From contig NZ_LWBS01000165.1 of NCBI RefSeq assembly GCF_001652265.1, positions 34,759 through 98,758 on the forward strand: a stretch of 64,000 bases of DNA. Direction: 5' to 3'. Both the position numbers and the translations under genes were made by a program. This document shows positions 41,005 through 63,935 of this stretch, piece by piece (within the stretch, counting starts at the first letter, position 1; every line of letters starts with the position of its first letter). Origin of the DNA: Rhizobium leguminosarum (lineage in GTDB: Bacteria > Pseudomonadota > Alphaproteobacteria > Rhizobiales > Rhizobiaceae). Below the pieces are notes generated by a model that was given only the letters and a program-made list of their open reading frames with translations, was not told the origin of the DNA and made no database searches.

Positions 41005-41046
41005 GTGCAATTCCCTCTTGACTCCAATAGAATGTTGAAGAAGTAA

Positions 41047-41067: not shown

Positions 41068-41227
41068 ATAAGGGACCGGAGAGTTCCAGGGAACGCAGGA
41101 GGCCGGCAAGGGCTCCGACGACGCTCCGAGACGACGAACCGGCACGCATTCCGCGCGTGCCTTCTCGAACGCCGATGGCGGAGGACCGCCGTCGGCAATG
41201 CGTAAATGTCAAATACTGGAGGCTGCA

Positions 41228-42466: not shown

Positions 42467-42539
42467 TCAAGCCATGAAAACCCGGGCGGCGCCTGCCGTC
42501 GCCCGGTCTCCAAACCTGTAATGAAGAAGGGTCGCCTTG

Positions 42540-48143: not shown

Positions 48144-48193
48144 CCTGCTCCTCCGAAAACGCCAAACCAATCGTTGGACTACGCTTGTCTCGA

Positions 48194-49675
48194 TCAAAAG
48201 GTGAGAACCCCGTTTCGTCGCGGCATGAGCCTTTGGACGACGATGGTCTCGATGCCGTCAGGCCTTCCGACAACCTGCCACAGCAGCAGCGCGAAGGCCC
48301 AGAAGATCGCGACGGCCGCCCCGCCGCAAAGCGCCAGGCTGACGATAAGGTTGAGGCCGACAGGCATGGCGGCGAGCATCGGCTCCATCCACAACAGGAA
48401 AGCGATCATCGGCAAGCTCGCGGCCAGAGGCCGTAAAAAGGCATGCAACTGAGCGGCAAACGTCGCACCGATCAGCTGCCGCGTGATAATCAGCGATGCG
48501 GCATAGGCGACAAGCACCGCCACGATCCGCGCGCCCAATGCTCCTGCCACCTGAAAATAGACAATGCCCAAGACGGTGACCGGAACCCTGACGGCGAACT
48601 CGGCAAACATCCGGAGAGCGAGATAACGGGTTTTATTCAGGACCATGGCCAATGGCGGCATCATATTCGTCGGAAGACCGAGCAGACTGACGATGCACAG
48701 CCATTGCAGAATCGGCGCGGCGGATGCCCATTTCTCGCCAACGATAATCCGTACGGCCGGCTCGGCAAGAAGCGCGAGCGTGATGAGGATGGGCGCGGCC
48801 ACGAAGGTGATCGCGTTCGTCGCCTTCAGATAGGCAGTGATCAGATTACGACGGTCATCGACGGTCGAGAATGCCGCCATCAGCGGGCGCAACAATGGCC
48901 CAACAAAGGTCTGGTATGGAATTCCGGCAATATTGTCGGCGACGCTGAAGGCGCCGAACGTCGACAAGCCGGTAAAGCGTGGCAAAAGCAGGCGGTCCAG
49001 TTGCCAGTTGATCGAACTCAGCACCTGCGACACGGTGTTCCAGCTGACCATGTCCTGAAAGTGCTTCCACTCGGAAAGGCTGAACCTCGGTCGCATCGGC
49101 GCAAAGACATAGGAGGTGATCGCCGCGGCGGTCGGGCCTGCAACCGCGCCGATCGCCAGTCCCCAATAGCTGCCGGTCGCGACCGCCACCCCGACACCGA
49201 ACAGCAGTGTCGAACCCTTGGTGATGAGATCGAGTGCGAACTCGCGTTTGAAATCGAACCGCTGCATGAACAGAACCATGCGTGGGCTGATCACACTGCG
49301 CATCGCAGGCGCGATGGAGAGCACGGCGACAAGCGAGAAAAGCCGGGAATCGTCATAGATCAGAGCCATTGGCCAGGAAATGATCATCATCAGTATGCTG
49401 ATGGCCACGCCTCGAAGCAGGCTGAGGGTAAGAGCCGTGGCAAACATATCGTCCGAAGGCGACGGCTGGCGCATCAGGGCCTGCGTCAGCGGCAGGTCCA
49501 GGATTGTCTCGACGATGACCAGAACCGAGGTCGCGATGGCGACAAGGCCGAAATCCGCCGGGCTCAAAAGCCTTGCGAGGATCAGGAGGCTGACGAAATC
49601 GAACAGTCGCGCCAGGAATTTACCGCCGATTGTCCAGATACTCGCCGTCGCCGTCTTCTGAGATACGCTTGACAT
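48194..49675 (-). CDS. Wzx-like polysaccharide flippase (PST/MATE superfamily)
   Basis: 493-residue inner-membrane protein with 12-14 predicted helices and the family N-terminus ASIWTIGGKFLARLFDFVSLLILARLLSPADFGLVAIA. FGAFSVADNIAGIPY and the paired-helix pattern are typical of ExoT/WzxC transporters. It would move lipid-linked repeat units across the membrane for the Wzy-like polymerase at 58671. The gene is downstream of two GT4 genes (79-base gap) and upstream of the GH16 gene. The ribosome site is weak. Confidence 0.9.
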   Translation of the reverse strand: MSSVSQKTATASIWTIGGKFLARLFDFVSLLILARLLSPADFGLVAIATSVLVIVETILDLPLTQALMRQPSPSDDMFATALTLSLLRGVAISILMMIISWPMALIYDDSRLFSLVAVLSIAPAMRSVISPRMVLFMQRFDFKREFALDLITKGSTLLFGVGVAVATGSYWGLAIGAVAGPTAAAITSYVFAPMRPRFSLSEWKHFQDMVSWNTVSQVLSSINWQLDRLLLPRFTGLSTFGAFSVADNIAGIPYQTFVGPLLRPLMAAFSTVDDRRNLITAYLKATNAITFVAAPILITLALLAEPAVRIIVGEKWASAAPILQWLCIVSLLGLPTNMMPPLAMVLNKTRYLALRMFAEFAVRVPVTVLGIVYFQVAGALGARIVAVLVAYAASLIITRQLIGATFAAQLHAFLRPLAASLPMIAFLLWMEPMLAAMPVGLNLIVSLALCGGAAVAIFWAFALLLWQVVGRPDGIETIVVQRLMPRRNGVLTF

Positions 49676-49754: not shown

Positions 49755-50999
49755 TCAGCCCGGCCGTCTTCTGAAGACCTCGGCGGATCGGTCGCCATGG
49801 GTGGACAGTTGTTGTTCGATCAGGCTGGACAGACGGTCGCGGAAAACGGCGGAAGAGAATTTCAGCGAGTGCGCGCGGATGGCATGCGGATCGATATCGT
49901 CCTCAACCTCTTCGAACGCCGCCATCGTTTCCAACAGAGCTTCCGTGGTCTGCTGCGCAAAGCGAAAACCGACCTGCGGCGAGGAAACGGTTTCTCTGGC
50001 GCCGCCGGCGTCGAAAGCCAGGACCGGCCGCCCGGATGCCATGGCTTCCACCGGAAGGATGCCGAAATCCTCCGTGCCGGGAAACAACAGCGCACGGCAT
50101 CGCGACAGGTGGTCGCGCAGAACGTTGAAGGGTTGATGGCCGAGAAACTCGACGGTCGGTCCGGCGATCGACTTCAGATAAGCCAATTGTTCTCCTTCGC
50201 CGATCACGACCAGCTTCCGCCCGGCCTCGGTGCAGGCGCGAACGGCAATATCCGGCCGCTTGTAGGTGGTCAGTTGACCCGCATAGAGATAGAATTCGCC
50301 TTTTCCCTTCCCCACCGCAAAATCGTCCGTCGCAACGGGCGGATGAATGACGATGGATTCCCGGTCGTAGAAGCGGCGGATCCGGCTTGCGACATAATCG
50401 GAATTGGCGACGAACACGTCGACTCGCGAGGACGTCGTCACGTCCCAGGCGCGCAGCATGGGCGCGGTGATCGACATCAAAGCGCGCCCAACCCAGGGCA
50501 GGCCATGACGGTAGACATGGAACTGATCCCAGATGTAGCGCATCGGCGAGTGGCAGTAGCAGACATGCAGCGCGTCGGCGCGCGTGATGATGCCCTTGGC
50601 GGGTCCGGATTCACTCGACAGCACGAGATCGTAGTCCTGCAGATCGAACTGCTCGAGCGCGAAGGGCATCAGCGGCAGCATCTTGGTATAATGCCGTTGC
50701 GCGCCGGGGATCTTCTGCAGGAAGGACGTGCGGATGTTCCGCGTCTTCAGAAAATCGCTGATGCGATCCCGGTTGCAGACGAGGGTGAAGATGTCGGCCT
50801 GCGGAAACATGCGGCACAGCTCTTCGACGACTTTCTCGCCGCCGCGCATCGAAACGAGCCAATAATGCACGATGGCGACACGAAGCTGCTTCGTGTCGCT
50901 CGCGCCTCCGGCTTCGGCGACACGTCTTTTCGCCATGACAGGCGCATCGCCGAGAAATGCCCTCGCGTCGGGAAGAGAGGTTGTTGCTTTAAGAGTCAA
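49755..50999 (-). CDS. GT4 family glycosyltransferase
   Basis: 414-residue GT-B fold transferase. The N-terminal domain begins LRVAIVHYWLVSMRGGEKVVEEL. The C-terminal nucleotide-sugar domain has FYLYAGQLTTYKRPDIAV and the EX7E-type motif EDFGILPVEAMASGRPV. Translation is assigned to TTG 50999, because AAGGAG lies 7 bases upstream and the codon overlaps the previous stop as TTGA. The long ATG frame to 51095 would overlap the upstream gene by 100 bases. It adds a sugar to the lipid-linked repeat unit; donor and acceptor are unknown. Confidence 0.9.
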   Translation of the reverse strand: MTLKATTSLPDARAFLGDAPVMAKRRVAEAGGASDTKQLRVAIVHYWLVSMRGGEKVVEELCRMFPQADIFTLVCNRDRISDFLKTRNIRTSFLQKIPGAQRHYTKMLPLMPFALEQFDLQDYDLVLSSESGPAKGIITRADALHVCYCHSPMRYIWDQFHVYRHGLPWVGRALMSITAPMLRAWDVTTSSRVDVFVANSDYVASRIRRFYDRESIVIHPPVATDDFAVGKGKGEFYLYAGQLTTYKRPDIAVRACTEAGRKLVVIGEGEQLAYLKSIAGPTVEFLGHQPFNVLRDHLSRCRALLFPGTEDFGILPVEAMASGRPVLAFDAGGARETVSSPQVGFRFAQQTTEALLETMAAFEEVEDDIDPHAIRAHSLKFSSAVFRDRLSSLIEQQLSTHGDRSAEVFRRRPG

Positions 51000-52342
51000 C
51001 TCGATACTCCTTGTATCACCACACCGTCTGTCAGCTCGGGAACCGCATTCGTCGAAATCAGGCTCTGGTATTCGGCAAGAAGCGCGTCGCGCCATTCCTC
51101 GTGTGTCGAGGCGAGATCCGGCGACAGCCGGAAAGCCCGCTCGCTCATGGCGCGGACCTCATGTCTCGGCATTTGGCTGAATCTCGTCAAAGTATCGGCA
51201 AAGGCGCTTTCGTCAGCCGTATCGCAGGCAAGCGCCATGCCGGCTCTTTGCATTTCCTCGGCGAGAAAGGCGCTGCGCGACATGATGACCGGCAGACCGC
51301 TCCTGGCCGCTTCGATAGCGACGAGACCGAACGGCTCGGGATAGCGCGACGGCATCAACAGTGCGCGCGCCTTGCGGATGGTCGGGCCGATCTCCGCATG
51401 CGACTGCCAGCCGACGGCCCTGACGTGATTTCCTGAAGCTGCGACCAGCGGCATCAGCGGCCCGTCCCCAATCACGCAGAGCCGGACGCCGGCTTTGCGC
51501 GTGGCGGCCACGGCGTCCTCTATGCCCTTCTCCTCATCCAGCCTCCCGATGAAGACGAACTCGTCGTTGGCCTCCGCCTCGATGCGTTTGATGGATAGCG
51601 GAGCAACGGGATTGCGGATCGTCGTCAGGCGTTCGGGCCGATATCCGGCGCCGACGAGAAAACCAGCCATCTTCTCGTGCAGCAGGATGATCCGGCCGAA
51701 ATCGGCCTGATCCTTCAGCAGCCGCAGGATATTGGAGCCGCGGGCGACCCGCCACAATTTGTGCGAATAACTTCTCTTGTCGCAAGCCGTCGCAATGCAG
51801 CTTCCGCCGAGCGGGCGCCGAAGGCAGATCTCCTGCGCCTGATAGTCGAAGAAGGCGCCGTTGGGGCAGGCGGTAAAGAAATCATGCGCGTGAACCACGC
51901 ATCGTCCGGCGACCGGCGCCAGTGCTCTGAAAATCGCCGGAGACAGGATCTGGTGCCAGCCATGGACATGGTAGACGGTATTGGCGGTGTCGTTTGCGGC
52001 AACCCAGTTCGCGACCATACGGACGGCGGCGCCATTGTGAATGCCGGTCACGAAAGCCTTCGCACGCTCGCCGCTGAGCAGGTCGCGGCTGTTCAGACCG
52101 ACCATCGAAACCCCGAGCGCGACAAGCTCCACATTGGCGGCGTCATCCCCGCAAATATAGGTCACGGGGATGTCGAGCTCCCGAAAAAGCTTGGCGGACA
52201 GCACCGCCAGCGCCGTCGCGCCGCCTCTGGCCACCGAGTAGTCGTCGATGATGACCACGCGATCGATCTTTGTCGTGCCTGGGCCGGGAAAGCGGCCGAC
52301 GCTTGCTGCGGATCGGAGAGCCTCGGGAAGCGATGGGCCCAT
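50996..52342 (-). CDS. GT4 family glycosyltransferase
   Basis: 448-residue GT-B transferase with N-terminal IDRVVIIDDYSVARGGATALAV and a conserved HVHGWHQILSP stretch. A cysteine-bearing insertion (FFTACPNGAFFDYQAQEICLRRP) is followed by the C-terminal donor site EFVFIGRLDEEKGIEDAV and PEPFGLVAIEAARSGLPV. The insertion resembles that of GT4 enzymes acting early on lipid-linked sugars. The ATG at 52342 overlaps the crp stop by one base (TGATG). It belongs to the minus-strand arm of the polysaccharide locus. Confidence 0.9.
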   Translation of the reverse strand: MGPSLPEALRSAASVGRFPGPGTTKIDRVVIIDDYSVARGGATALAVLSAKLFRELDIPVTYICGDDAANVELVALGVSMVGLNSRDLLSGERAKAFVTGIHNGAAVRMVANWVAANDTANTVYHVHGWHQILSPAIFRALAPVAGRCVVHAHDFFTACPNGAFFDYQAQEICLRRPLGGSCIATACDKRSYSHKLWRVARGSNILRLLKDQADFGRIILLHEKMAGFLVGAGYRPERLTTIRNPVAPLSIKRIEAEANDEFVFIGRLDEEKGIEDAVAATRKAGVRLCVIGDGPLMPLVAASGNHVRAVGWQSHAEIGPTIRKARALLMPSRYPEPFGLVAIEAARSGLPVIMSRSAFLAEEMQRAGMALACDTADESAFADTLTRFSQMPRHEVRAMSERAFRLSPDLASTHEEWRDALLAEYQSLISTNAVPELTDGVVIQGVSS

Positions 52343-53079
52343 CACTTCACCGAAACCGCGCCGTTGGCACAGGCCTCCAGCGCCTTGCGGTTGAGAATGC
52401 GGATCTTGCCCTGCCCCCCGTCGATGATCTTGCTTTCCCGCAGGCGCCGCAGGCATTGATTGACCTTCTCGCGGGACGCCGGCAGCGTCGCGGCCAGGTC
52501 ATTTTGCGAGATGATTAGTTCGTCGCCGCTATTTGCCGCATCTTTTCCATAAACAGCGGAGAGCCGCAGCAGCGTGCTGGCCAGCCTCGACTGCAGGCTC
52601 GACGCCGCATTGGCAATGATCCGGAGTTCAAGCTCTGAAATACGCGCCAGCGCCCTGGAGAAAACCTTTTCGCGAAAGCTGGGATCGCTGGCGTACATGT
52701 CGCGCAGCAGCCTGCCTTCGAAGAAATGCAGTTCGCAGTTGGAACCGGCGCGGTATTCGAGACTCAACGTCTGCCTGCGCAGGACCTCGAGCTCGCCGAT
52801 GAGGCCGGATTTCGGAATAATCTCGACGATGAATTCCCTGCCGTCGGGCAGCATCGTGCTGGCGCTGACCACCCCCGAATGGACGCGCGCGAAGGTATCG
52901 ACGAGGACGCCGGCCCCGGCGATGACTTCGCCGCGCCGGAATCGCCGGACGCTCGACCGGCAGGAAAGAAATTCGTCGTCGATGACGATGCGGCTGTTGA
53001 GAAGAATGCTGCCGTTAGCCGATATGGCCGGCTTGCCGATGCCGGCCTTGCGATCTGATGTGTGTGTCGCCCCATCCAT
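52342..53079 (-). CDS. Crp/Fnr family transcriptional regulator, left copy
   Basis: 245-residue regulator from the ATG at 53079 (MDGA), with GGAG 8 bases upstream. It has an N-terminal cNMP-binding-like beta barrel (FRRGEVIAGAGVLVDTFARVHSG, GLIGELEVL) and a C-terminal winged helix with SQNDLAATLPASREKVNQCLRRLRES. It lacks the PxGExxGExA phosphate-binding signature of cAMP receptors and the Fnr cysteine set, so its signal is unknown. About 77% of some 204 aligned residues match the regulator at 63183. It leads the minus-strand polysaccharide operon. Confidence 0.92.
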   Translation of the reverse strand: MDGATHTSDRKAGIGKPAISANGSILLNSRIVIDDEFLSCRSSVRRFRRGEVIAGAGVLVDTFARVHSGVVSASTMLPDGREFIVEIIPKSGLIGELEVLRRQTLSLEYRAGSNCELHFFEGRLLRDMYASDPSFREKVFSRALARISELELRIIANAASSLQSRLASTLLRLSAVYGKDAANSGDELIISQNDLAATLPASREKVNQCLRRLRESKIIDGGQGKIRILNRKALEACANGAVSVK

Positions 53080-53552
53080 GCGCATAACTCCGAGTACTCG
53101 AATAACCATAGAAAATGCTGCACCGCATCATTTATATTGCCTTAATATGAGAGTCAAATAACATCACCGAAATTTAGCGTAAAGATAAAGCATCTATTTA
53201 GTTCCAAAACAAAATATACATCATGAACTGAATTCAAAATCTCAATGAATCTAAAAAACTGCCGTTTGATCGAATATGACTGCCTATTAAAATGGCTTAC
53301 TGAATTAAAAACGGCAATAATCGAAATGATGATATCAAAACTGATAAATAAGTATCAGCAAATAATCGCTCCGAATTAGGTTAGATTGTCGTTTGAAATG
53401 AAAAGAAGGCCATCAAGGTGTAATCCAAATTCTCTATTGCCCGTTAGTAGCATAAAGAATTTATTAAGGATTATGACCTTGGTAACAGACAACCAGAGTG
53501 CGGCGCAGCAAACTTTGAACGGTTCTTAATCGGAATGTTTTGGAGACCGCCG
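53080..53552. promoter_or_regulatory. AT-rich divergent control region of the polysaccharide locus
   Basis: This 473-base stretch is much richer in A and T than its flanks and holds no supported gene. It must carry the promoters of both arms. Notable dyads are CTGATA/TATCAG with spacer AATAAG at 53341-53358 and the perfect palindrome TGATATCA at 53330-53337. GGAG at 53542 is the ribosome site of the plus-strand gene. The base composition fits a target of Crp/Fnr and nucleoid-protein control, which is inference. Confidence 0.6.
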
Positions 53553-54254
53553 ATGACATGGGATGCACATAGTTTCGAGGCCTGGTCGCGTGTCGGACGG
53601 TCCGCGAAAGACGGCGATCTCCATTCGTCCCGGCCGCGTGCGGCAGGCAGATCGTCGAAGCGCGCGATAGACCTTCTCATCGCAATCACGGCGCTGATCC
53701 TGCTTTCCCCGCTTCTGTTGATCGTCGCAATAATCGTGAAGATGAACGACCGCGGCCCGGTCTTCTATTCCCATACGCGTATCGGCGTCGGTGGAGCGCC
53801 GTTCGGGTGCCTCAAGTTTCGCACGATGAAGACCGATGCGAGTACTCAGCTTGCCGAATTGCTGCAAAACAACCCGGCTGCGCGAAGCGAATGGGAAGAG
53901 ACACGCAAGCTGAAGGACGATCCGAGGGTCACAGCCGTCGGAGAGATCCTGAGGCGGTCGAGCATCGACGAACTCCCCCAGCTGATCAATATCGTGCGTG
54001 GCGACATGAGCCTTGTCGGCCCCCGGCCGATCACGGCCGAGGAATTGCCGCGCTACGGCGAGCATATTTGGGCCTATATGGCCGTCCGCCCCGGCCTGAC
54101 CGGTCACTGGCAGACCAGCGGGCGCAACGATGTCAGTTATGAGTACCGGGTTTCCCTCGACGTTCACTATCTCGACAACTGGTCGCTCGGCCGGGACTTC
54201 GTCATCATTGCTAAGACCATTCCCGCTCTGTTTTCGCAGCGCGGCTCGTACTGA
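53553..54254 (+). CDS. Exopolysaccharide priming sugar-1-phosphate transferase (ExoY/PssA type)
   Basis: 233-residue polyprenyl-phosphate hexose-1-phosphate transferase that starts repeat-unit assembly. One membrane segment (about residues 38-62, AIDLLIAITALILLSPLLLI) precedes the catalytic domain with GPVFYSHTRIG, KFRTM, RRSSIDELPQL, GDMSLVGPRP and RPGLTGHWQ. The start at 53553 has GGAG 8 bases upstream; an in-frame ATG at 53535 has a poorer site. It is the first gene of the plus-strand arm. The sugar is likely galactose or glucose by family. Confidence 0.92.
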   Translation: MTWDAHSFEAWSRVGRSAKDGDLHSSRPRAAGRSSKRAIDLLIAITALILLSPLLLIVAIIVKMNDRGPVFYSHTRIGVGGAPFGCLKFRTMKTDASTQLAELLQNNPAARSEWEETRKLKDDPRVTAVGEILRRSSIDELPQLINIVRGDMSLVGPRPITAEELPRYGEHIWAYMAVRPGLTGHWQTSGRNDVSYEYRVSLDVHYLDNWSLGRDFVIIAKTIPALFSQRGSY

Positions 54255-54370
54255 GCATTCAAGGGGAAGCTGCCGACCATGCTTGAAATCGGAAGACACG
54301 CTGCCCCCGTCCCCTCCAAGCCGCCACTCCCTGGTTGCTCCGTGATCTCGCCATTTTGGATTAGGACGAC

Positions 54371-56137
54371 ATGACCTCAAGCACGATCTTCAGCGGTGTT
54401 TCTCCGATATCTCTGCCTGCCGCAGCCACTGACGGGAATTCGCCGCTGACCTTGCGAGATATGCTCTTCTTTCTCAGGATGCGCTGGCGGTGGATTGTGG
54501 CGACGACGCTCGTTTTCCTCGCAATGGCGGGGATCTATGTGCTGAGCGCCGAGCCGACTTTCGTTGCCAGCACGCAACTTGTGATCTTCCCGCAGGTGAG
54601 CGGCACCGAAGCACAAAGGTCTTTCGCAGAAGACGCATTCATAGAGGGACAGCTGGAGATCGCCAGATCCAGCGATGTCATCAGCGAAACGGTAAGGGCG
54701 CTTGGTCTCGATACCGATCCCGACTTTGTCGATCAGGCGCCTTCGCTGCAGGATAGGGCAAAGAACTGGTTGATGGGGATTTCTTCTGAATCGGATACGG
54801 AATCGCAGGAAGCAGTAGGCACAGGGCCGCGTGACAGACAGCCGCAACAGCAGATCGAGGACGGGCGGATCCATGATCGGGCGGTCGCCACGCTGCTGAA
54901 CATGATGGGAGTACGCCGGATCGGGAGTTCGACGATCATCGAGATATCGGCTGCAGCGTCGACCCCACATCAGGCCGTCGACATCGCCGACACGCTGGCC
55001 AGGCAGTATATCCAGAAGAATATCGCAATGAAGGCCAATGCGTCCCGGCAATACAGCGAATGGCTGACCAGATTCGTAAGCGAGCAGCAGCGCGGACTGG
55101 CCGAAGCTGCCAGTGCCCTGGCCAGCTTCACGAGCAATCCGCGCGATCAGTTCAAGCTTGCGGAGCTGCAGAGCGCGACTGACGCCCGCCGCGCCCTCTA
55201 TGAAAATACCTTGAATCAGCTGACCGAAGCCCGGCAGCGCATCACCTACCCGGTGTCGGATGCCACGATCGTCTCTCGGGCCACCCTGCCGCTTTCGAAG
55301 GCCAGACCACGCAGCGCGCTCATCATCGCCTTTGCGTCGGCGGTTGGTCTTGGCGTCGGGCTGGCACTTGCCATGATCAGGCACGCCGGCGATCGCCGGA
55401 TCATCCGCCCCCATCAGATCGCGGAAGCCGGTGGACTGCCCTTTGTCACTTTGCTGGCGACATCGAGGCGGATCCGCAATGGTCATCCCGCACGTTTCCT
55501 CGCCGCCGGTACTGGCAGCAGCAGCACAGCCGCCAATCCCGTCATACCGGGCATGGCGGAATTGAGCGCGACGGTCGTCGGTCTTCGGCGCAAACGCCGG
55601 GTCGTCATTGGAATCGTCGCCGTCAATCCCGGCGGCGGGGCGTCGACCATAGCATGCGAACTTGCGGTGCTGTCCTCCATATCAGGCGCTCACACGCTGC
55701 TGATCGATGCAGCCGCACAGAAATCGTCGCTCAGCAAATCGATCGCCCCCCATAGTTCCACAGGCCTCGTCGATGTTCTCGAAAATGGCGAACTGATCCA
55801 GGCGGCGGCATTGCCCCTCACCCCGACGCTGAAATTCCTTCCCCTCGGCAAGGTCGAAGCGGTGACGCCAGCCATACGCCTCAGTTCCCGCCGTACGCAG
55901 TTGAGTTTCGCCGAGCTGAAAAAGGAGTTCGACGCCATATTCGTCGACATTTCCGCATTCTCCGCGTCGCCGGATGCCAATGCGATCGCGCCGGAACTGG
56001 ACGGTGTCCTCGTGGTCACGTCGCACGGGCGCACCTCGATCGACGACACCATGCGCGTCATCGACACCCTGCGGAATGTCGGCGCGGAGATCCTCGGCGC
56101 GATCATCAATCATGCACCGAAAAGAATAGAGTCATGA
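54371..56137 (+). CDS. Wzz/Wzc-like chain-length protein with degenerate kinase domain
   Basis: 588-residue polysaccharide co-polymerase. A Wzz domain with membrane helices near residues 41-60 and 315-335 flanks a periplasmic helical region. The cytoplasmic C-terminal half resembles a BY-kinase/ParA domain, but Walker A reads NPGGGAST (419-426), so the lysine is Ala424. Walker A' (LLIDAAAQ) is also altered, and no C-terminal tyrosine cluster follows. It probably regulates chain length without ATP-dependent autophosphorylation. It lies 116 bases after the priming gene and overlaps the GT2 gene by 4 bases. Confidence 0.9.
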   Translation: MTSSTIFSGVSPISLPAAATDGNSPLTLRDMLFFLRMRWRWIVATTLVFLAMAGIYVLSAEPTFVASTQLVIFPQVSGTEAQRSFAEDAFIEGQLEIARSSDVISETVRALGLDTDPDFVDQAPSLQDRAKNWLMGISSESDTESQEAVGTGPRDRQPQQQIEDGRIHDRAVATLLNMMGVRRIGSSTIIEISAAASTPHQAVDIADTLARQYIQKNIAMKANASRQYSEWLTRFVSEQQRGLAEAASALASFTSNPRDQFKLAELQSATDARRALYENTLNQLTEARQRITYPVSDATIVSRATLPLSKARPRSALIIAFASAVGLGVGLALAMIRHAGDRRIIRPHQIAEAGGLPFVTLLATSRRIRNGHPARFLAAGTGSSSTAANPVIPGMAELSATVVGLRRKRRVVIGIVAVNPGGGASTIACELAVLSSISGAHTLLIDAAAQKSSLSKSIAPHSSTGLVDVLENGELIQAAALPLTPTLKFLPLGKVEAVTPAIRLSSRRTQLSFAELKKEFDAIFVDISAFSASPDANAIAPELDGVLVVTSHGRTSIDDTMRVIDTLRNVGAEILGAIINHAPKRIES

Positions 56138-57156
56138 CCTCACCTTCGGCAGAAGCAACCAGGCAGGACAGCCCGATCGGACCGGCGCCTGTTCCTTGCG
56201 GCGCTGAAGCCATGGCGGGGCACGCGAGCCGCCCATTGCGAATGGCCGTGGGGATCGCTTCGGCCGGCCGCCCCTCGATACTGCGGGAGACGGTGGATTA
56301 TCTCACGGCCCTGCAGGATCAGGCCGAGCGGCTGATCGTCTGCGTGCCCTTGATCGACGACGCAGCCGGGCTCGCCGACCGCCGCGACGTGGAAGTCATT
56401 GTCGGCAGCCGCGGCCTGACCTCTCAGCGCAACAGGATCATCCAGGCGGCCGCTGCCGATACGGATGTTCTGATCTTCCTGGATGACGACTTCATTCCCG
56501 CCTCGACCTTCCTGTCGCGGATGGCGGCTGTCTTTGCGGCAAACCCCGACGTGGCGATCGCCACCGGCGAAGTTCTGGCCGATGGCATCCTCGACGGCGG
56601 CCTCAGCATGTCAAACGCCCTGCAGGTTCTTGAAACTGCGGCCGAAGGAGCCGTGCAGGTGACGGATGTCTATAACGCCTACGGATGCAATATGGCGGTT
56701 CGCCTTTCACCCATTATCGAGCACGCGCTGGCCTTTGATGAACAATTGCCGCTCTACGGCTGGCTCGAGGATGTCGATTTCAGCCGGTCCATCGCCCGCT
56801 ATGGCAGGTCCGTCCGTGTCGAAGGTGCCCGCGGGGTGCACCTCGGCGTCAGATCCGGGCGCCAGCCCGGCCGAAGACTCGGCTATTCGCAGGTTGCCAA
56901 TCCTGTCTACCTGACCCGGAAGGGCACGATGTCGAAGGGCCGTGCCGTTGCACAGATCGGCCGTAACATCCTGGCGAATACGCGGGGCCTATTGTTCAAT
57001 GATCGCTTGATCGACCGTTGGGGACGTTTGAACGGCAATTTGCTGGCCCTGTCCGATCTTCTTATCGGCCGCGCCTCTCCGTCCCGTATCCTGGAATTGG
57101 GCAATCCCGCGCCGCGCGAAATGCCTTCGCCGTCGATCGCAACGAAACGGAGATAG
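56134..57156 (+). CDS. GT2 family glycosyltransferase
   Basis: 340-residue GT-A transferase. MAVGIASAGRPSILRETVDYL forms the nucleotide fold, LDDDF (117-121) is the metal-binding DxD-type motif and GWLEDVDFS the acceptor/base region. A Pro/Ala-rich leader of about 35 residues precedes the fold. There are no clear membrane helices. The start overlaps the Wzc-like gene as ATGA. It would add a sugar to the growing repeat unit; the donor is unknown. Confidence 0.9.
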   Translation: MTSPSAEATRQDSPIGPAPVPCGAEAMAGHASRPLRMAVGIASAGRPSILRETVDYLTALQDQAERLIVCVPLIDDAAGLADRRDVEVIVGSRGLTSQRNRIIQAAAADTDVLIFLDDDFIPASTFLSRMAAVFAANPDVAIATGEVLADGILDGGLSMSNALQVLETAAEGAVQVTDVYNAYGCNMAVRLSPIIEHALAFDEQLPLYGWLEDVDFSRSIARYGRSVRVEGARGVHLGVRSGRQPGRRLGYSQVANPVYLTRKGTMSKGRAVAQIGRNILANTRGLLFNDRLIDRWGRLNGNLLALSDLLIGRASPSRILELGNPAPREMPSPSIATKRR

Positions 57157-57162
57157 CAGACA

Positions 57163-58545
57163 ATGCAGCGCACATCCTTGTCCGGTCGCCTCATCTCCAT
57201 CGCCCTTGCCTTGCTGGCATTTTCCGGCGTGACCGGCTGGAGTGTCGCCCATGCGGAAAACTATACCCTCGTGCCGGAAGATCAGGTGAGACTGCGTGTC
57301 GTCGAATGGCGATCGTCGGATTCCCGGTATGCCAGCTGGGAAGCCCTCGGCGGAACATATACAGTCGACGATGCCGGTAATCTGGCGATTCCGATCGCCG
57401 GCCAGGTGCAGGCGATCGGCAAGACGACCGCGCAGGTTTCCGATGCGATCGCCACCGCGCTCTCAGAAAAGGCGGAACTGCCGGGAAAGCCGTTCATCGC
57501 CGTGGAAATTGCCCAGCATGCGCCGATCTTCGTAACCGGGACCGTGCAGACCCCCGGGCGCTATGCTTTTGAGGCCGATATGACGGTCATGAAGGCCGTC
57601 AGCATCGCTGGCGGCTTCCTTCGGGAGCGCGAGGAAAATACCGTCTTCGAGCGCGACCGGATTCAGGCCGCCGGCGCCTATCGAACCGCCATTCTCAACC
57701 GGCGCGATCTTCTGATGCGCCAGGCGCGGCTGCGCGCCGAGATCGCCGGCGAACAGAGTTTCGAGATCCCTGCCGAGCTCGCCGGAACGCCCGATGTGGA
57801 CAAGCTCAAGGCGCAGGAATTGAACCTGATGCGGCTGCGACGTGTCGATATCGAAAGCCAGATCGAAGCAGCAAGCGACCTCAGCCGTCTCTACGGCCAG
57901 CAGGTCCAGTCTCTCGAGGCCAAGATCAATTCGCAAAAACGGCAGATCGACCTGGCGCAGAAGGAACTGGACAATGTCAACAGTCTGGTGAGCAAGGGCT
58001 TGGTCAGCAATTCCCGTCAGGTCTCGGTCGACCGCGGGGTCGCGGATGCGCAAGGCACCCTGATCGACCTCGAAGTCGCCCTGACCACGGCTCGCCAGGG
58101 GCTCAGCGAAGCCGACCGCTCGACGATCAATATCGTCAACCGGCAGAACAGCGAAAACCAGGAACTGCTGAACCAGGTCAATCTGGCGATCGGCAGGGCG
58201 GCGATCGATATCCAGGTGGCCCAGCTTCTGGGCGAGCAGGCTGGCTACAGCGCGCAGCTCGCCCAGATGAATACGGAAACGCCGGGTCTTGGCAGAGCGC
58301 AGAAGAACTACAGGATCGTGCGTCGCAACGAAGACGGGACTTATCGCAACATCGAGGCGGACGAGACAACCACCTTGCGGCCGCATGATGTCGTCGAAAT
58401 CGGCATCGACACCGACCTTCAGACGCCGTCGCCTCCGCTGCAGCTGCAGTCCGCACCGCAGCAAAGCTCGACCGTCCCGCTGTCGAATGTGGCAGGCGAT
58501 AATCAAGCGGCTGCCGGCTGGATATCCCAGACGGGATCGAATTAG
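57163..58545 (+). CDS. Polysaccharide export protein (ExoF/Wza type)
   Basis: 460-residue periplasmic/outer-membrane export protein. A signal peptide (1-31, ending VAHAEN) precedes the poly-export domain (YTLVPEDQVRLRV and DDAGNLAIPIAGQVQAIG). A SLBB-like part follows (IFVTGTVQTPGRYAF, LKAVSIAGGF-like) and a long coiled coil (about 185-345). This domain order is that of ExoF, longer than Wza. There is no lipobox cysteine, so it is not a lipoprotein. It follows the GT2 gene by 6 bases, with GGAG upstream. Confidence 0.92.
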   Translation: MQRTSLSGRLISIALALLAFSGVTGWSVAHAENYTLVPEDQVRLRVVEWRSSDSRYASWEALGGTYTVDDAGNLAIPIAGQVQAIGKTTAQVSDAIATALSEKAELPGKPFIAVEIAQHAPIFVTGTVQTPGRYAFEADMTVMKAVSIAGGFLREREENTVFERDRIQAAGAYRTAILNRRDLLMRQARLRAEIAGEQSFEIPAELAGTPDVDKLKAQELNLMRLRRVDIESQIEAASDLSRLYGQQVQSLEAKINSQKRQIDLAQKELDNVNSLVSKGLVSNSRQVSVDRGVADAQGTLIDLEVALTTARQGLSEADRSTINIVNRQNSENQELLNQVNLAIGRAAIDIQVAQLLGEQAGYSAQLAQMNTETPGLGRAQKNYRIVRRNEDGTYRNIEADETTTLRPHDVVEIGIDTDLQTPSPPLQLQSAPQQSSTVPLSNVAGDNQAAAGWISQTGSN

Positions 58546-58590
58546 GGGGCGGTAGTGAGCATCGACGACAGCTGGCGGCTTCCGCCTCAA

Positions 58591-58635
58591 GCATCGCGCC
58601 GAAAGGCGGATGCCGGTCTTCGGCAAAACCGATGC
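58591..58635. repeat. REP-like palindrome between export and polymerase genes
   Basis: GCATCG (58591-58596) and GCCGAA (58598-58603) pair with TTCGGC (58619-58624) and CGATGC (58630-58635), giving an imperfect 45-base dyad. It lies in the 125-base gap between the ExoF-like and Wzy-like genes. It resembles dispersed rhizobial intergenic palindromes and may lower polymerase expression relative to upstream genes. Confidence 0.5.
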
Positions 58636-58670
58636 CTCCGCCGCTCGCCGTCCGGATCGGGATCTGAAGC

Positions 58671-60140
58671 ATGTCGATAGAACCGATCGGTTTCATCGTT
58701 CTGCTGCTTGGCCTGCTCGGCATGGTCAACGGCGCGCGTTTTGCGGTCGCGACCCTTTGCCTGTCGACGCTGCTGGGGGCCGCAGCGGCTCTCCAATTGC
58801 CGGCGCTCGGCGGCAGCAGCATCCAGCCAAGCCATCTACTGGTACTTTTTCTCGTGGCCGCCGCCCTGCTACGCCCGGCTCAAACACAGGCGATGCTGGC
58901 CAGCCTCGCCTATCCGGGTTCCGGTTTCTGGTTTGCCTGCTACATCCTGTTTTCCGTAGCATCGTCTTTCTTCTTGCCCCGCATCTTTGCGGGCGCGACC
59001 CTGGTCTACTCCTCTGCACGAGACGCCACGGGCATGATGTCGACGGTGGCCGCTCCCTTGTCGCCGGGTTCGTCCAATCTCAGCCAGTCCGTCTATCTGC
59101 TCGGCGATCTCGCCTGCTTTGCCGCCATCTCGGGGCTTACCAGGCTCGGATATGCCCGTTTCATCGCACTGCAGTTGATCGTGGCCTCGATCGCATGTTT
59201 TGTCCTGGCGTTGGTCGATATCGGAACGTTCCTGACCGACCAGTCCTACCTGCTCGATGTCATCAGAAATGCGAATTATACGATGCATACGGCCGAGACG
59301 ATCAGCGGCTTCAAACGCATCGTCGGTCCGTTCCCCGAAGCAAGCACTTATGGCGCGGTCGCATTGACCTATTTTTCCTTCACGCTCATGCTTTGGCTGG
59401 AGCGCGTCCAAAGCCGCATGGCGGGACTTGCAACGCTTTTCATCGGCCCGACGATCGTCCTTTGCACGTCGACAACCGCCTATATCGCCGGCATCTTCGT
59501 TGTCTGCATGTTCGTGCTGTATTGCTTGAAACGACTGATCGACGGCCCAGCCACGACCCCGCACGTGACACTCCTGGTGATCACACTGTTCTTGATTCCC
59601 TGCGCCATCGTCGCGCTCAGCCTTATCCCCGATGCGTGGGATTCCATCGCCGGCCTAGTGAACACCACCTTGTCGGACAAGCTACAATCACAATCCGGTG
59701 AAGAGCGCACTGCCTGGAACACGCTGGCATTGATCGCATTCGTCGATACTGCCACCTTCGGCGCCGGGCTCGGCACGGTTCGAGCTTCGAGCTTCATTGC
59801 TGCATTGCTTTCCAATGTCGGATTGACCGGCACTCTTCTCTTCGCCGCCTTCCTGTACAGCCTCGTGAGAGCCTCCGGCCGGCATAGGTTAGGCGATCGG
59901 GAGATGCACGCAATCGGAAACGCGGCGGTGATGGCATCCATCGCCCAGGTCGCCTCGGCGGCGATATCGGGAAGCGGCACCGATCTCGGATTGCTGTTCA
60001 GCACCACGGCCGGCCTGGCGGCCGGCTGCCTGGCGGCAACCAATACCTCGCCACACCGCGCGACCCGATCGCTTGCCAACCGGACTCCACTGGGGACATC
60101 GACATCTCTGATGAGAGCGCCGATGTTTTCAACACGATGA
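58671..60140 (+). CDS. Wzy-like polysaccharide polymerase (O-antigen ligase family)
   Basis: 489-residue inner-membrane protein with about 11 predicted helices and a periplasmic loop between the eighth and ninth. Sequence identity in this family is low. GFKRIVGPFPEASTYGAVALTYFSF and the later FGAGLGTVRASSFIAALLSNVGLTGTLLF match the ExoQ/Wzy pattern. It would polymerise the repeat units on the periplasmic side. It ends the plus-strand arm; a GC-rich stem (GGCGTG 60194-60199, CACGCC 60226-60231) follows and may end transcription. Confidence 0.88.
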   Translation: MSIEPIGFIVLLLGLLGMVNGARFAVATLCLSTLLGAAAALQLPALGGSSIQPSHLLVLFLVAAALLRPAQTQAMLASLAYPGSGFWFACYILFSVASSFFLPRIFAGATLVYSSARDATGMMSTVAAPLSPGSSNLSQSVYLLGDLACFAAISGLTRLGYARFIALQLIVASIACFVLALVDIGTFLTDQSYLLDVIRNANYTMHTAETISGFKRIVGPFPEASTYGAVALTYFSFTLMLWLERVQSRMAGLATLFIGPTIVLCTSTTAYIAGIFVVCMFVLYCLKRLIDGPATTPHVTLLVITLFLIPCAIVALSLIPDAWDSIAGLVNTTLSDKLQSQSGEERTAWNTLALIAFVDTATFGAGLGTVRASSFIAALLSNVGLTGTLLFAAFLYSLVRASGRHRLGDREMHAIGNAAVMASIAQVASAAISGSGTDLGLLFSTTAGLAAGCLAATNTSPHRATRSLANRTPLGTSTSLMRAPMFSTR

Positions 60141-60328
60141 GGCCCGCTGTGGAGCTCCGCCATGGCGTAGCATGGCAATCTCATCAAGCCGTTGGCGTGC
60201 CGCCACGGGGCCGAAGCCGGCCGGCCACGCCGCATCTTTCAAGAATCGCCTGTAAAAACAAACTGGCGAACGAACGCCGTCTTGCAAGGCCATCCGCAGA
60301 GGGCTATGCGGCGAATTCTATGTCGATA

Positions 60329-60628
60329 TTAGCCTTGCGGGCGCTCACGGGTGGTCGCGACGCTATCTGCAGCGGAATTGTTTTCCCGCAGCCTGGCACT
60401 GCGTCGCAAAAACCCCGAGAGGAACACGCCCGCCAGATAGCCGATTTCCATGAACGAGAGAATGGCGACACCGAAGAGGATTGCCGCAATCACCGAAGAC
60501 CCGTCGGCGAAAGCCACACTGCCGAAGCCGATTGCCACGAGAAATGCAAAAATTGCGAAAGCCCAGGCGCGGATGGAAGCCCCGGCAGCGATCGAAATGA
60601 CGGCTGCCACAAGTATGGTGATCAACAT
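60329..60628 (-). CDS. Small three-helix inner-membrane protein, possible ExoX/SyrA-like regulator
   Basis: 99 residues from the ATG at 60628, which has an AGGGGG ribosome site upstream. Three hydrophobic segments (about 2-18, 21-40, 45-72) are followed by a basic, hydrophilic tail (RRSARLRENN). Size, topology, the segment MEIGYLAGVFLSGFLRR and location beside exo genes recall ExoX/Psi/SyrA proteins, which curb polysaccharide synthesis at the priming step. That similarity is weak and from memory. The overlapping plus-strand frame is a shadow. Confidence 0.65.
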   Translation of the reverse strand: MLITILVAAVISIAAGASIRAWAFAIFAFLVAIGFGSVAFADGSSVIAAILFGVAILSFMEIGYLAGVFLSGFLRRSARLRENNSAADSVATTRERPQG

Positions 60629-60935
60629 GACAATCCCCCTCCCCTCCGCATTCCACCAAACGTCCCGGCACCAATCGTCGTACCGCGAAACGATATGTCG
60701 AAACACAGCCTTATGACAGACAAGGCATTCTTCATAATGAATACCTCAACAATGAAACGCACAAAAGCCGCCGTCAGCCAGACACCGATTCAGCACCATT
60801 GGACCGGATGTCGGCAATATATACTGAACAGGGCCTTCATATGACAGAGCTGTCGGCTCAATTCACAACTGTTCCCTCGCCTCGCAAAGACAATGCCGAT
60901 TCAATCGTATTGCGCACAATCGGAAGGGTGATGAC
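60629..60935. promoter_or_regulatory. Divergent promoter region of the small membrane protein and GT8 genes
   Basis: This 307-base gap has no supported gene. It is AT-richer in its middle (about 60720-60850). GACAG (60843-60847) and CTGTC (60850-60854) form a short dyad with a 2-base spacer, 82 bases before the GT8 start. GGAAGGG before 60936 is a strong ribosome site. No copy of the CTGATA/TATCAG dyad from 53341 was seen. Confidence 0.4.
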
Positions 60936-61847
60936 ATGAACAATCAGTGCGTCGTCTACGTCACGGATGTCGAATATTCATTTCCGACCATTCTCTCGGC
61001 GCTTCAGGCTCGCAAATTCGCAAGCTCCGCGACCGATGTCTGCGTCCTCATGTCGGAACATCTCGACAATTTCGAAGAGCTGAAAGCCCTGCTCGCAACG
61101 AACGGGGTCATCTTGATCGATGCGACTGAGGCGCTGCAGGACTCGCTCGGCAAGCTCGACAGTTCGCATTTCCAGGGGCGCATCAGCGTCAGCACGATGG
61201 CCAAGCTGGTCCTTTGCGAGATCCTGCCTGCCCATTATACCCAGATCATCTACCTCGATGGGGATACCCAGATCGTCAGCAATCTGGGTGCTTTCGAAAG
61301 TGCAGTTGTGCCCGAAGGCAGGTTTTTCGCGGCGCGCGATTACACGGCGATCCATGACTTCCTCGACACCGGAAAGGACAGCCACTATTTCAATGCAGGG
61401 GTGCTGAAATTCCATCGCAACGGCTGGATCGGACAGGAGGCGCTTGAGCTTTTTGCTAGAAATCCCGAGGCCTGCGAGGGCAAACATGATCAGGGCGCAT
61501 TGAATTATGTCTGCGGTTCATCGCTCATCCTCGTATCGAACCGGTGGAACTTTCCAAAACAGTTCCTTCATCTGGTGACCATGTCCTCCTTGTCGATCGT
61601 CCATTATATGGCGCATCCAAAGCCATGGCACGGAACCTTCTTTCCATGGACCGATAAAGAAAGCCAAGTGTACGTCGACCTGCGCAAAGCACATCCGATT
61701 TACAACTCGCTGTATCGCGGAATAAGCTTCGACCGTAAGATGCTGTATAAATATCGATCGATACGGGCGCGCATCGAACACGCGATTGAGAAAGACGAAT
61801 TCAATCCTCGGGTTCAGAGCCTGCTGGTTGGCGATTATGCCGTATGA
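60936..61847 (+). CDS. GT8 family glycosyltransferase
   Basis: 303-residue GT-A transferase of the glycogenin/LgtC family. The DGD metal motif is at residues 108-110 (IIYLDGDTQIV), HYFNAGVLKF is the conserved second site, DQGALNYVC follows and HYMAHPKPWHG is the terminal His-Lys-Pro-Trp motif. All key residues are present. Donors in the family are UDP-glucose, galactose or galacturonate. It likely adds a side residue to the polysaccharide. Confidence 0.9.
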   Translation: MNNQCVVYVTDVEYSFPTILSALQARKFASSATDVCVLMSEHLDNFEELKALLATNGVILIDATEALQDSLGKLDSSHFQGRISVSTMAKLVLCEILPAHYTQIIYLDGDTQIVSNLGAFESAVVPEGRFFAARDYTAIHDFLDTGKDSHYFNAGVLKFHRNGWIGQEALELFARNPEACEGKHDQGALNYVCGSSLILVSNRWNFPKQFLHLVTMSSLSIVHYMAHPKPWHGTFFPWTDKESQVYVDLRKAHPIYNSLYRGISFDRKMLYKYRSIRARIEHAIEKDEFNPRVQSLLVGDYAV

Positions 61848-61939
61848 TGATGTATTGTTGGTCCGACCTGAATGTTCGCGAAACTGAACTCAGCGTCGCC
61901 GGTCGAGCCGTGGATTTGCAGACGGAAGCGCAAGTATTC

Positions 61940-61962
61940 ATCCATTCATTCCAGGAATGGAT
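61940..61962 (+). promoter_or_regulatory. Perfect hairpin upstream of the GT2-type gene
   Basis: ATCCATTC (61940-61947) and GAATGGAT (61955-61962) are perfect 8-base arms around a 7-base loop. The hairpin ends 17 bases before the ATG at 61980, and the AGGACAG ribosome site follows it. It could be an operator or a leader-RNA structure that modulates translation. Confidence 0.45.
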
Positions 61963-61979
61963 AATGTTCAGGACAGAAT

Positions 61980-63002
61980 ATGAGTTATAGGGCTTCCGCC
62001 GCCAGTATCTCGCATTATGTGAAAGCCCGCCTGCGCCGGTCGCTCAAGGCTCGGCAGGTTCGCTATGATCTGCTGCGCAGCGGGCTCAAGCAGGCGCGCC
62101 ACGTCGTCATCTGCGTCATCCGCGACGAAGGGCACCGGCTGGCCTTCTTCCTGCAGTATTATCGTGATCTCGGCTTCGAGCACTTCATCTGCATCGACAA
62201 CGGCTCGACCGACGGCACGGCCGAGTTGCTGTCCAGCTTCGACGACGTCTCCCTTCTTTCAGCTCATGGGTCCTACAAGGCGGCGAGATTCGGAAACGAC
62301 TGGATCAACGAAGTCATCAACCGGCACTGCCGGGAGAAGTGGGTCCTGTACGTCGATGCAGATGAATTTCTGGTCTATCCCCATTGCGACACCCGGCCGA
62401 TCGATCAATTGACCGCCTATATCGAATCCATGGGCGGCCACTCGCTCCGCTCGGTCATGATCGACATGTATAGCCCGCATCCCGTTCTCGAGAACATCTG
62501 CGAACCCGGTCGCAACCCGCTCGAGGTCTGCAATCTTTTCGACCGATCCGGCTATGTCGCGCATTTCGACAAACGCAACTGGACAATATGGATCAAGGGT
62601 GGCGTTCGCGGGCGGGTCTACTTCCACGACCGGCTGTGGGACGGCCCCGCGCTCAACAAGATACCTCTCATCCATGTGGCGGGTGAACGTCTGTTTCTCA
62701 AATCATCGCACCAGGTCTGGCCGCTCTCGCTGAATTTGGGCGACATGCGCGGAGCGCTCGGCGTATCCGGCGCCCTTCTGCATTTCAAGTTTCTGTCGAC
62801 ATTCGTGCACAAGGTTGCCGATGCGGCACACCGATCCCAACATACGGAAGAATACACCGTATACTCCTCAGGCAAGGACATGGATGACTTCGTCCATGAC
62901 GATACGGAGACCTACAGAAGCTGGAAAGACCTGTCCGATCACGGGCTCATACAGGGTGAAGGCTGGAAATACTGGAGGAATGCTTCCGAGACCGAAGTCT
63001 AA
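61980..63002 (+). CDS. GT2-type glycosyltransferase (Glyco_tranf_2_4-like)
   Basis: 340-residue protein of the GT2/GT92-like group. CVIRDEGHRLAFFLQYYRDLGFEHFICIDNGSTDGT is the donor-binding start, VDADEF (125-130) the metal motif, and later HVAGERLFLKSSHQVWP and LLHFKFL are characteristic. A basic N-terminal stretch (about 16-40) may touch the membrane. It is 132 bases after the GT8 gene on the same strand. Acceptor and donor are unknown. Confidence 0.9.
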   Translation: MSYRASAASISHYVKARLRRSLKARQVRYDLLRSGLKQARHVVICVIRDEGHRLAFFLQYYRDLGFEHFICIDNGSTDGTAELLSSFDDVSLLSAHGSYKAARFGNDWINEVINRHCREKWVLYVDADEFLVYPHCDTRPIDQLTAYIESMGGHSLRSVMIDMYSPHPVLENICEPGRNPLEVCNLFDRSGYVAHFDKRNWTIWIKGGVRGRVYFHDRLWDGPALNKIPLIHVAGERLFLKSSHQVWPLSLNLGDMRGALGVSGALLHFKFLSTFVHKVADAAHRSQHTEEYTVYSSGKDMDDFVHDDTETYRSWKDLSDHGLIQGEGWKYWRNASETEV

Positions 63003-63045
63003 TGCAGTCCAAAAATGCGCAGCGGTTTTGGGACGACGCGCATGA
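63003..63045. repeat. Degenerate RIME-like fragment
   Basis: TCCAAAAATGCGCAGCGG is followed by TTTTGGGACGACGCGCATG. This keeps the plan of the first RIME palindrome (CCAAAA/TTTTGG arms, GCAGCGGTTTTG core) with many changes. It starts right after the GT2-type stop codon. Only one of the two RIME dyads is recognisable. Confidence 0.45.
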
Positions 63046-63117
63046 AGACAAGAGCCAACACGTCAACCCGAGCTTTCAGCCTGCATCGTCTGACTATCGA
63101 CTCCCCATCAAACACAA

Positions 63118-63136
63118 AACCCGCCGGCGGCGGGTT
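63118..63136 (-). terminator. Intrinsic terminator for the right crp gene
   Basis: AACCCGCC (63118-63125) pairs with GGCGGGTT (63129-63136) around a 3-base loop. Read on the minus strand, the stem is followed by TTTTGTGTTT, so it is a convincing rho-independent terminator for the regulator gene ending at 63183. On the plus strand the following bases are less T-rich, but it may also stop the GT2-type transcript. Confidence 0.7.
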
Positions 63137-63182
63137 CTGTTGAGGCTTCTGCCGTTCCGTTTTATTTTATCGAGGCGCCGCC

Positions 63183-63935
63183 TCAAACGAGAGACGTCAC
63201 ACCCTCGGCGTAAGCTTCTAGCGCCTTCCGGTTGAGAATGCGGATTTTGCCCTGTGTCCCGTCGACCACTTTGCTCTCGCGCAAACGCCGCAGGCACTGG
63301 TTAACCTTCTCACGCGACGCCGGCAGCGTTGCGGCCAGGTCATGTTGGGAGATGATCAGCTCATCGCCGCTATTCTCCGCATCCATTCTGTACAGGGCAG
63401 AAAGACGCAGCAGCGTCCGGGCCACTCTCTGCCTTAGACTCGATCCGGCATTGGCAATGATCCGCAGTTCGAGTTCGGAAACACGCGCCAGCGCCTTTGA
63501 CAGGATCTTCACCTGAAATTGCGGATCGTTCGCACACAAGTCCCGCAGTAACCGACCGTCGAAGTAATGGAGTTCGCAGTCCGAGGAGGCCCGATATTCC
63601 AAGCTGAGAGACTGCTTGCGCAGCACCTGCAATTCGCCGATCAAGCCACCTTTAGGAATGATTTCGACGATGAACTCTCGTCCATCGGCAAGCGGGGTGC
63701 TTGCACTCACCATTCCGCGCTGCACGCGGGCGAACATGTCGATGAGGACACCGGCGCTGGCAATAAGCTCACCGCGACGAAACTTTCGAACACTCGAGCG
63801 GCAAAACGGGAACTCGTGATCCAAATCCCCCCGATCACCGTAAACAATACCTACAGTCCCGAAAGTAATCGCTTCGCCTATTCGCGCCGCGCTTCCTCTA
63901 GTCCTGTCGTCTCTGATGCTAATCGCCCCATCCAT
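63183..63935 (-). CDS. Crp/Fnr family transcriptional regulator, right copy
   Basis: 250-residue paralogue of the regulator at 52342-53079, with the same MDGA start, the same FCRSSVR-type segment before the barrel (FRRGELIASAGVLIDMF, GLIGELQVL) and a nearly identical C-terminal HTH (SQHDLAATLPASREKVNQCLRRLRES). GGAG precedes the ATG at the same spacing as in the left copy. The N-terminal 40 residues differ most. It stands alone with its own terminator and marks the right edge of the polysaccharide locus. Confidence 0.92.
   Translation of the reverse strand: MDGAISIRDDRTRGSAARIGEAITFGTVGIVYGDRGDLDHEFPFCRSSVRKFRRGELIASAGVLIDMFARVQRGMVSASTPLADGREFIVEIIPKGGLIGELQVLRKQSLSLEYRASSDCELHYFDGRLLRDLCANDPQFQVKILSKALARVSELELRIIANAGSSLRQRVARTLLRLSALYRMDAENSGDELIISQHDLAATLPASREKVNQCLRRLRESKVVDGTQGKIRILNRKALEAYAEGVTSLV

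Follow-up and report, generated by a model that had tools for sequence, protein, structure and literature searches.

Why does a rhizobial polysaccharide locus carry two regulators of the Crp/Fnr superfamily that are so much alike? The question is raised by a stretch of 64,000 nucleotides from Rhizobium leguminosarum (assembly GCF_001652265.1, contig NZ_LWBS01000165.1, positions 34,759 to 98,758 of the forward strand), here called the window, in which two minus-strand regulator genes, regA and regB, stand on either side of a series of plus-strand polysaccharide genes. A first-pass annotation of these letters had seen in them near-duplicates that bracket an exopolysaccharide locus and could relay two signals to one set of promoters. 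The locus is the described Pss-II Wzx/Wzy polysaccharide region of the R. leguminosarum group, whose members live on the roots of clover and pea, and regB belongs to a block that also holds BacT2, encoding a second PssY-like priming transferase, and orf2, a second small membrane protein gene related to orf1 of the window. The explanation that we favour, and think rather likely to be right, is a single local regulon common to both regulators, in which the second of them was acquired and a pseudo-transferase retained beside Pss-II. Papers are cited by PMC number. The elements on which the argument turns are the following:

52342..53079, minus strand: regA, presumably crp1, a Crp/Fnr-family regulator and first minus-strand gene of Pss-II (open reading frame (ORF) and Pfam; beside pssY, as is crp1 in PMC4182512)
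53472..53490, plus strand: candidate operator TATGACCTTGGTAACAGAC, sole match in the window; the pattern is exact in every one of the 59 regA/pssY intergenic regions fetched
53535..54254, plus strand: pssY, priming phosphoglycosyl transferase with an Asp-Glu dyad (Bac_transf in Pfam, WbaP structures); the conserved start is probably 53553
63183..63935, minus strand: regB, second Crp/Fnr-family regulator, start of the putatively acquired block (ORF, Pfam)
Contig C27 of the window's assembly (locus L194), rest of the block: operator at 73-91; BacT2 at 116-805, plus strand; orf2 at 1174-881, minus strand

Content and distribution of the regB block

The window's contig stops 65 nucleotides past regB, concealing its divergent partner. 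The first gene that can be recognised beyond regB in R. johnstonii 3841, divergent from it, is a second Bac_transf gene, namely BacT2; orf2 and an acyltransferase gene come next. We searched 148 genomes of the genus Rhizobium, found a regA-like gene in 60 of them and fetched the loci of 59 (all but the window's own). BacT2 is present in 37 of these 59 loci, so that with the window's genome added the block occurs in 38 of 60; the 22 genomes that have regA and lack the block comprise eight of one near clade and 14 more distant ones. In the eight near-clade genomes the last glycosyltransferase gene stands directly beside the acyltransferase gene. No remnant of the block was recognised in the gap of 38-345 bp between them, whose similarity to six block genomes is, short chance hits apart, confined to the acyltransferase edge.

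The first-pass annotation had proposed looking for both regulators across Rhizobium genomes, and had held that absence or frameshift of one copy in close relatives would speak against it. For regB this is what was found: in addition to its absence from those 22 genomes, it is broken in five of the 37 fetched copies (L107, L109, L111, L129 and L133; the copy of L136 is intact). No stop falls inside the regA match in any of the 60 genomes.

The small membrane proteins Orf1 and Orf2 (60329-60706, minus strand, in the window; 881-1174, minus strand, in L194) have a GS..GY..GV-like motif, a weak resemblance to SyrA/ExoX. Neither has a Pfam match to that family (PF11089) up to E 0.1, and kinship with ExoX was dropped as not significant after comparison with 12 SyrA-family proteins (hhalign 37%). 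PF11089 itself occurs in 58 of 100 genomes sampled from the genus and, on informal impression, seems rare where Pss-II is present.

Two similar regulators

RegA and RegB each have HTH_Crp_2 and cNMP_binding matches above the Pfam cut-offs, which places both in the Crp/Fnr superfamily, and ORFs and Pfam alike bear out the two minus-strand genes at 52342-53079 and 63183-63935. BLASTP aligns them over their full length at 69% identity (172 of 249 residues, E 2e-120). Residues 41-245 of RegA are 77% identical to RegB (158 of 205), in agreement with the earlier estimate by eye, and residues 1-40 differ, as had been said, with 14 of 40 identical. The MDGA start and the spacing of GGAG, eight nucleotides and ATG are likewise common to both, and the recognition helix, previously called almost identical, is identical (SREKVNQCLRRLRE). 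No other close pair was found in the genome assembly, where the other matches at E <= 0.001, three in number, have 25-28% identity. The median pairwise ratio of nonsynonymous to synonymous divergence (dN/dS) is 0.098 for regA and 0.156 for regB; this and the other ratios below come from 31 of the 37 block genomes, with the five broken-regB genomes and L136, whose regB is intact, left out.

Among regulators of solved structure the best sequence match is 7pza, entitled 'putative cAMP-binding protein-catabolite gene activator' (46 bits), which we take to be Clr of Sinorhizobium meliloti. At the position of the phosphate-binding Arg of Clr (R95), mapped through one HMMER alignment, all 93 proteins scored have Leu, Val or Met (46 RegA, 14 outer-clade RegA and 33 RegB). 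The Arg of the Arg-Ser with which Clr and CAP bind phosphate is missing from RegA and RegB, and the pocket Gly-Glu is kept. Since the pocket Arg is gone, neither regulator looks like an ordinary sensor of cyclic nucleotides, and judging from these residues a cyclic nucleotide effector is doubtful.

One candidate operator at both promoters

Comparison of the regA/pssY and regB/BacT2 intergenic regions revealed one element common to the two. In the window copy the first 16 bases, taken on the opposite strand, are TGTTACCAAGGTCATA, which differs from the Clr core GTNNCNNNNGNNAC at a single position, and all 98 sites scored lie within one mismatch of that core (six with none and 92 with one, taking the best of three registers). 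Beside pssY the element is ATTATGACYTTGGTAACAGACA in 45 of 45 near-clade and ATTATGACCNNGGTCACAGACAA in 14 of 14 outer-clade sequences. When one intergenic region was letter-shuffled 2000 times, the best match reached 14 of 17 positions, once. On the minus strand the half-site is TGTTA in all 45 near-clade regA/pssY operators and TGTGA in all 14 outer-clade ones as well as in the block operators compared.

An exact search for TRTGACYNNGGTMACAGAC in the 148 genomes gave 99 matches in 62 genomes, and none with the reversed pattern as control. The fetched loci account for 95 of them: each of the 59 has a match next to pssY, and 36 of the 37 with BacT2 have one next to that gene, L110 alone having none. 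Two more belong to the window's genome, one on contig C165 and one just before BacT2 on C27. The last two come from genomes without a regA match at 1e-40 (L195 and L196), where they stand in diverged Pss-II-like loci, flanked by a Crp gene with 36-41% and a pssY gene with 55-57% identity. All 99 sites are thus at a divergent promoter of a Crp gene and a priming transferase gene. In L195 and L196 a Wzy-like gene directly follows pssY. A looser 16-bp pattern with one mismatch has five further matches in the window's own genome. The plain E. coli CRP pattern TGTGANNNNNNTCACA was also tried and set aside, giving one chance-level match in the window with one mismatch.

Because the two regulators have the same helix and one operator lies in both of the regulator/transferase intergenic regions, RegA and RegB should read the same DNA site, as the first-pass annotation had surmised. 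The element beside BacT2 is kept in all five genomes with a broken regB, which suggests that RegA acts there too.

Could the two proteins nevertheless bring two signals, through different N-terminal sensors, to one set of promoters? The contrast between the N-terminal 40 residues and the DNA-binding part (residues 165-245, 65 of 81 identical) invites the idea, as does the operator common to both regions. The divergent N terminus, however, is not covered by the cNMP_binding match (residues 45-131 of RegA, 50-137 of RegB), the phosphate-binding Arg is absent from both proteins, and regB is missing or broken in several lineages, unlike regA in the 60 genomes. Moreover, the region 60629-60935, one of those that the first-pass annotation had named for footprinting, has no site with two or fewer mismatches to the 16-bp element. 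We regard this explanation as improbable.

BacT2 has lost catalytic residues but kept its frame

PglC, a small monotopic phosphoglycosyl transferase, works with a D93-E94 dyad together with K59, R88 and R111, residues that this class of enzymes conserves (PMC12802240); the mapping of the latter three onto BacT2 is our own. The dyad is DE in all 59 pssY genes, whereas in BacT2 it is DK in 27, EK in five, AK in two, and DA, ET and YK in one each, so that the Glu is kept in 0 of 37. The Lys is kept in 24 of 37, the Arg five residues before the Asp in 16 and the GPRP Arg in 30, and PRP has become PRA in 35. In addition, about 24 residues are missing before the dyad in 37 of 37. The alignment of BacT2 with WbaP breaks at residues 336-366, and the gap falls in the region 337-369 of WbaP, which has been likened to a mobile loop close to the active site (PMC10942596). 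An AlphaFold model of the BacT2 of the window's genome (47 sequences, mean predicted local distance difference test score 76.7, predicted template modelling score 0.72) matches PglC and WbaP at E ~1e-15, with a template modelling score of 0.70-0.71 to PglC by query length. BacT2 is predicted, then, to have the monotopic phosphoglycosyl transferase fold and to lack the Asp-Glu dyad of an active enzyme, and is likely to be a pseudoenzyme.

The reading frame is nevertheless open in 37 of 37 genomes, against about six stop mutations per lineage expected under neutrality at the observed synonymous divergence (a rough figure that ignores shared ancestry), and the median dN/dS of BacT2 is 0.275. From these two observations we conclude that BacT2, by its sequence a transferase that has lost catalytic residues, has been retained as a gene.

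One may ask whether the block is simply an inert leftover in which regB and BacT2 are decaying without function. The missing catalytic residues, the broken regB copies and a dN/dS of BacT2 nearly twice that of pssY (0.149) all point this way, but the open frames, the values of dN/dS for BacT2 and regB, and the persistence of the operator beside BacT2 even where regB is broken point the other way, and we consider it unlikely that the block is functionless.

Origin of the block

The regulator tree contained 97 sequences (46 regA, 33 regB, eight of the 14 outer-clade regA and ten others), and in it regB groups with L079, L080, L081 and L082 at a support of 100; a constraint placing regA and regB together was rejected by the approximately unbiased (AU) test (p = 0.0197). 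In the transferase trees BacT2 groups with P0034 from Rhizobium herbae (support 100) and with P0032, not with pssY, and holding BacT2 and pssY together was rejected at an AU p of 2e-5 (13 of 37 BacT2 and 15 of 45 pssY sequences in the tree). BacT2 is 63% identical to P0032, 60% to P0034 and about 57% to pssY-type proteins of R. leguminosarum, and a fragment of pssY from the genome of L079 shares 78% identity with P0034. On these trees, which cover the regulator and the transferase of the block, it would be a piece of a foreign Pss-II locus gained by transfer. L079 is itself a Pss-II-like locus, in a plasmid record of Rhizobium sp. RCAM05350, with frame breaks in several genes that may reflect decay or sequencing error.

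The second transferase of strain 3841 also suggests duplication in place, in which a second copy of regA-pssY...orf1 would have arisen in the R. leguminosarum lineage and then lost its middle genes. It would account for the same order and orientation of regulator, transferase and small membrane protein beside the resident locus, and for regulators that are 69% identical. Both constrained trees reject it, however, and BacT2 is nearer to P0032 and the R. herbae protein than to the pssY-type proteins of R. leguminosarum, leaving this origin with little probability. The regulators may therefore be called near-duplicates, as they had been, for their identity but not for their descent.

Several observations weigh against gain from a foreign locus and against function in the block. 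In a tree of seven neighbour genes under midpoint rooting, the eight block-free genomes are sister to the 37 block genomes, so a single gain and a single clean loss fit equally. Resolution of the regulator tree is poor in the vicinity of regA (supports 41-82), the AU p of 0.02 for the regulators is modest, and an earlier tree with only the L079 fragment joined it to regB at just 0.496. The regulator of L079 has 71% identity with RegA over 217 residues and, over nearly its full length, 67% with RegB; the L079 locus carries many frame breaks; and P0034, the nearest relative of BacT2, entered the comparison as a protein sequence. Finally, the dN/dS of BacT2, being above that of pssY, also fits slow decay, and the roles given to regB and BacT2, like binding of the regulators to the element, are deduced from sequence.

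What the block may do

In the shared regulon that we favour, dimers of RegA, and of RegB where it is intact, would bind the two elements and hardly any other site, or none, and the two regulators would form a small cross-regulated circuit that sets pssY, the minus-strand genes from crp1 through two glycosyltransferase genes to wzx, and BacT2 together. In this view BacT2 would be a PssY-like membrane protein that does no catalysis and competes for the partners, substrates or inhibitors of priming, and it, more likely than regB, would be the selected part of the block.

A bolder version, which we put forward tentatively and with some doubt, makes the acquired block a regulatory device, in which a dead priming transferase, controlled through an operator that it has in common with its live counterpart, tunes the initiation of polysaccharide synthesis. 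BacT2 might then compete with PssY for substrates, for dimer or co-polymerase partners, or for a small ExoX-like inhibitor (Orf1 or Orf2). If true, the first committed step would have a pseudoenzyme as its brake or decoy, one that came from a foreign copy of Pss-II and persists in 38 of the 60 sampled genomes that have the regulator. In rhizobia a small non-enzymatic membrane protein is known to adjust a priming transferase by copy ratio in the pairs ExoX/ExoY and PsiA/PssA (PMC3233446).

What is modestly new is a presumably foreign crp-transferase unit retained beside Pss-II with a probably dead transferase. According to a 2017 review, pssP2 was the only Pss-II gene whose function had been studied (PMC5748678). 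The available text on Pss-II speaks of crp1 only and does not mention a second regulator or a second priming transferase, which printed maps may show, and a literature search over titles and abstract openings found neither a second Pss-II regulator nor an inactive PssY relative named. The local regulator of Pss-II gains a concrete 19-bp candidate operator, with 99 exact matches at one kind of promoter, and the naming of a kept, probably dead priming transferase makes pseudoenzyme control of priming testable in strains such as 3841.

The resident locus

The first-pass annotation knew of no described locus with this layout; the layout is that of Pss-II, in print with crp1, pssY, pssP2 and pssL2 named (PMC4182512, PMC4696191). 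We base the identification on the pssY promoter primer site and on gene order and names in those two papers. The published reverse primer maps to 53533-53552 with 2 of 20 mismatches, at the start of pssY; the forward primer, which gave no match at three or fewer mismatches, can be made out by eye near 53132 if one base is taken as missing. A search at the same tolerance for the RosR box published for crp1 was likewise without a match, and a promoter scan of the regA/pssY intergenic region yielded three candidates against 1.9 expected by chance, from which no promoter is claimed. Expression of the Crp gene Rt620_2 was up by log2 7.05 in a mutant of rosR, nearby pssY, two glycosyltransferase genes and pssL2 were also up, and lacZ fusions of crp1 and pssY were in accord with this rise (PMC4696191).

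According to the ORFs, pssY and crp1 are divergent in the window; Wzz and Poly_export are recognised by Pfam, and Wzx and Wzy are assigned from their place in the locus and the published layout. Pss-II also continues leftwards from regA on the minus strand, with two glycosyltransferase genes, Wzx and GH16. The bracketing once proposed holds only in so far as plus-strand genes lie between the regulators. RegA, which would be the product of crp1, is encoded at the central divergent promoter of Pss-II and not at its edge, and regB is paired with its own transferase gene beyond the window. The remaining genes are:

47316..48197, minus strand: GH16 glycosidase, left end of Pss-II (Pfam, synteny)
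48194..49675, minus strand: pssL2, Wzx flippase (published Pss-II layout, ORF)
49755..51095, minus strand: glycosyltransferase of the minus-strand genes, in 18 of 20 loci compared, the other two stopping short of this side
50996..52456, minus strand: family 4 glycosyltransferase downstream of regA (ORF, Pfam); its start in the ORF list overlaps regA
54371..56137, plus strand: pssP2, Wzz/co-polymerase (Pfam Wzz and GNVR; PssP2 in PMC4182512)
56134..57156, plus strand: family 2 glycosyltransferase (Pfam)
57163..58545, plus strand: Wza-type polysaccharide export protein (Pfam Poly_export and SLBB)
58671..60140, plus strand: probable Wzy polymerase, from position and the published description of Pss-II; no Pfam match
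60329..60706, minus strand: orf1, small membrane protein related to that of orf2 (hhalign 99.7%); no Pfam match
60936..61847, plus strand: family 8 glycosyltransferase (Pfam)
61980..63002, plus strand: glycosyltransferase (Glyco_tranf_2_4; Pfam), the plus-strand gene with which the resident locus ends and the block begins to its right

To the left of Pss-II, at 39796-47285, lies a sugar-uptake cluster of ROK regulator, ATP-binding cassette transporter, SIS and PfkB genes, found in the same place in several relatives.

Comparison with known systems

The Pss-II region of strain TA1 (DQ384109) has crp1 and pssY in divergent orientation, their promoters in between, followed by pssP2 and further genes of a Wzx/Wzy pathway (PMC4182512, PMC5748678). 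Divergence, co-polymerase, flippase, polymerase and export genes are all as in the window, and we regard the two as the same locus.

RegA and RegB resemble Clr, the cAMP/cGMP receptor of S. meliloti, in their Crp-family domains, in the KVN of the recognition helix and in a candidate operator within one mismatch of the Clr core. They differ from it in the number of sites, as Clr has 417 intergenic peaks in chromatin immunoprecipitation, compared with one or two exact sites per genome here.

For the transferase, the BacT2 model shares the fold of PglC and WbaP, whereas BacT2, in 37 of 37 genomes, is without the catalytic Glu and the mobile loop and in part without the active-site Lys and Arg. 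The pairs ExoX/ExoY and PsiA/PssA offer a model for how BacT2, or Orf1 and Orf2, could act on priming. BacT2, however, is transferase-like and not a relative of ExoX, and Orf1 and Orf2 are only weakly similar to SyrA/ExoX.

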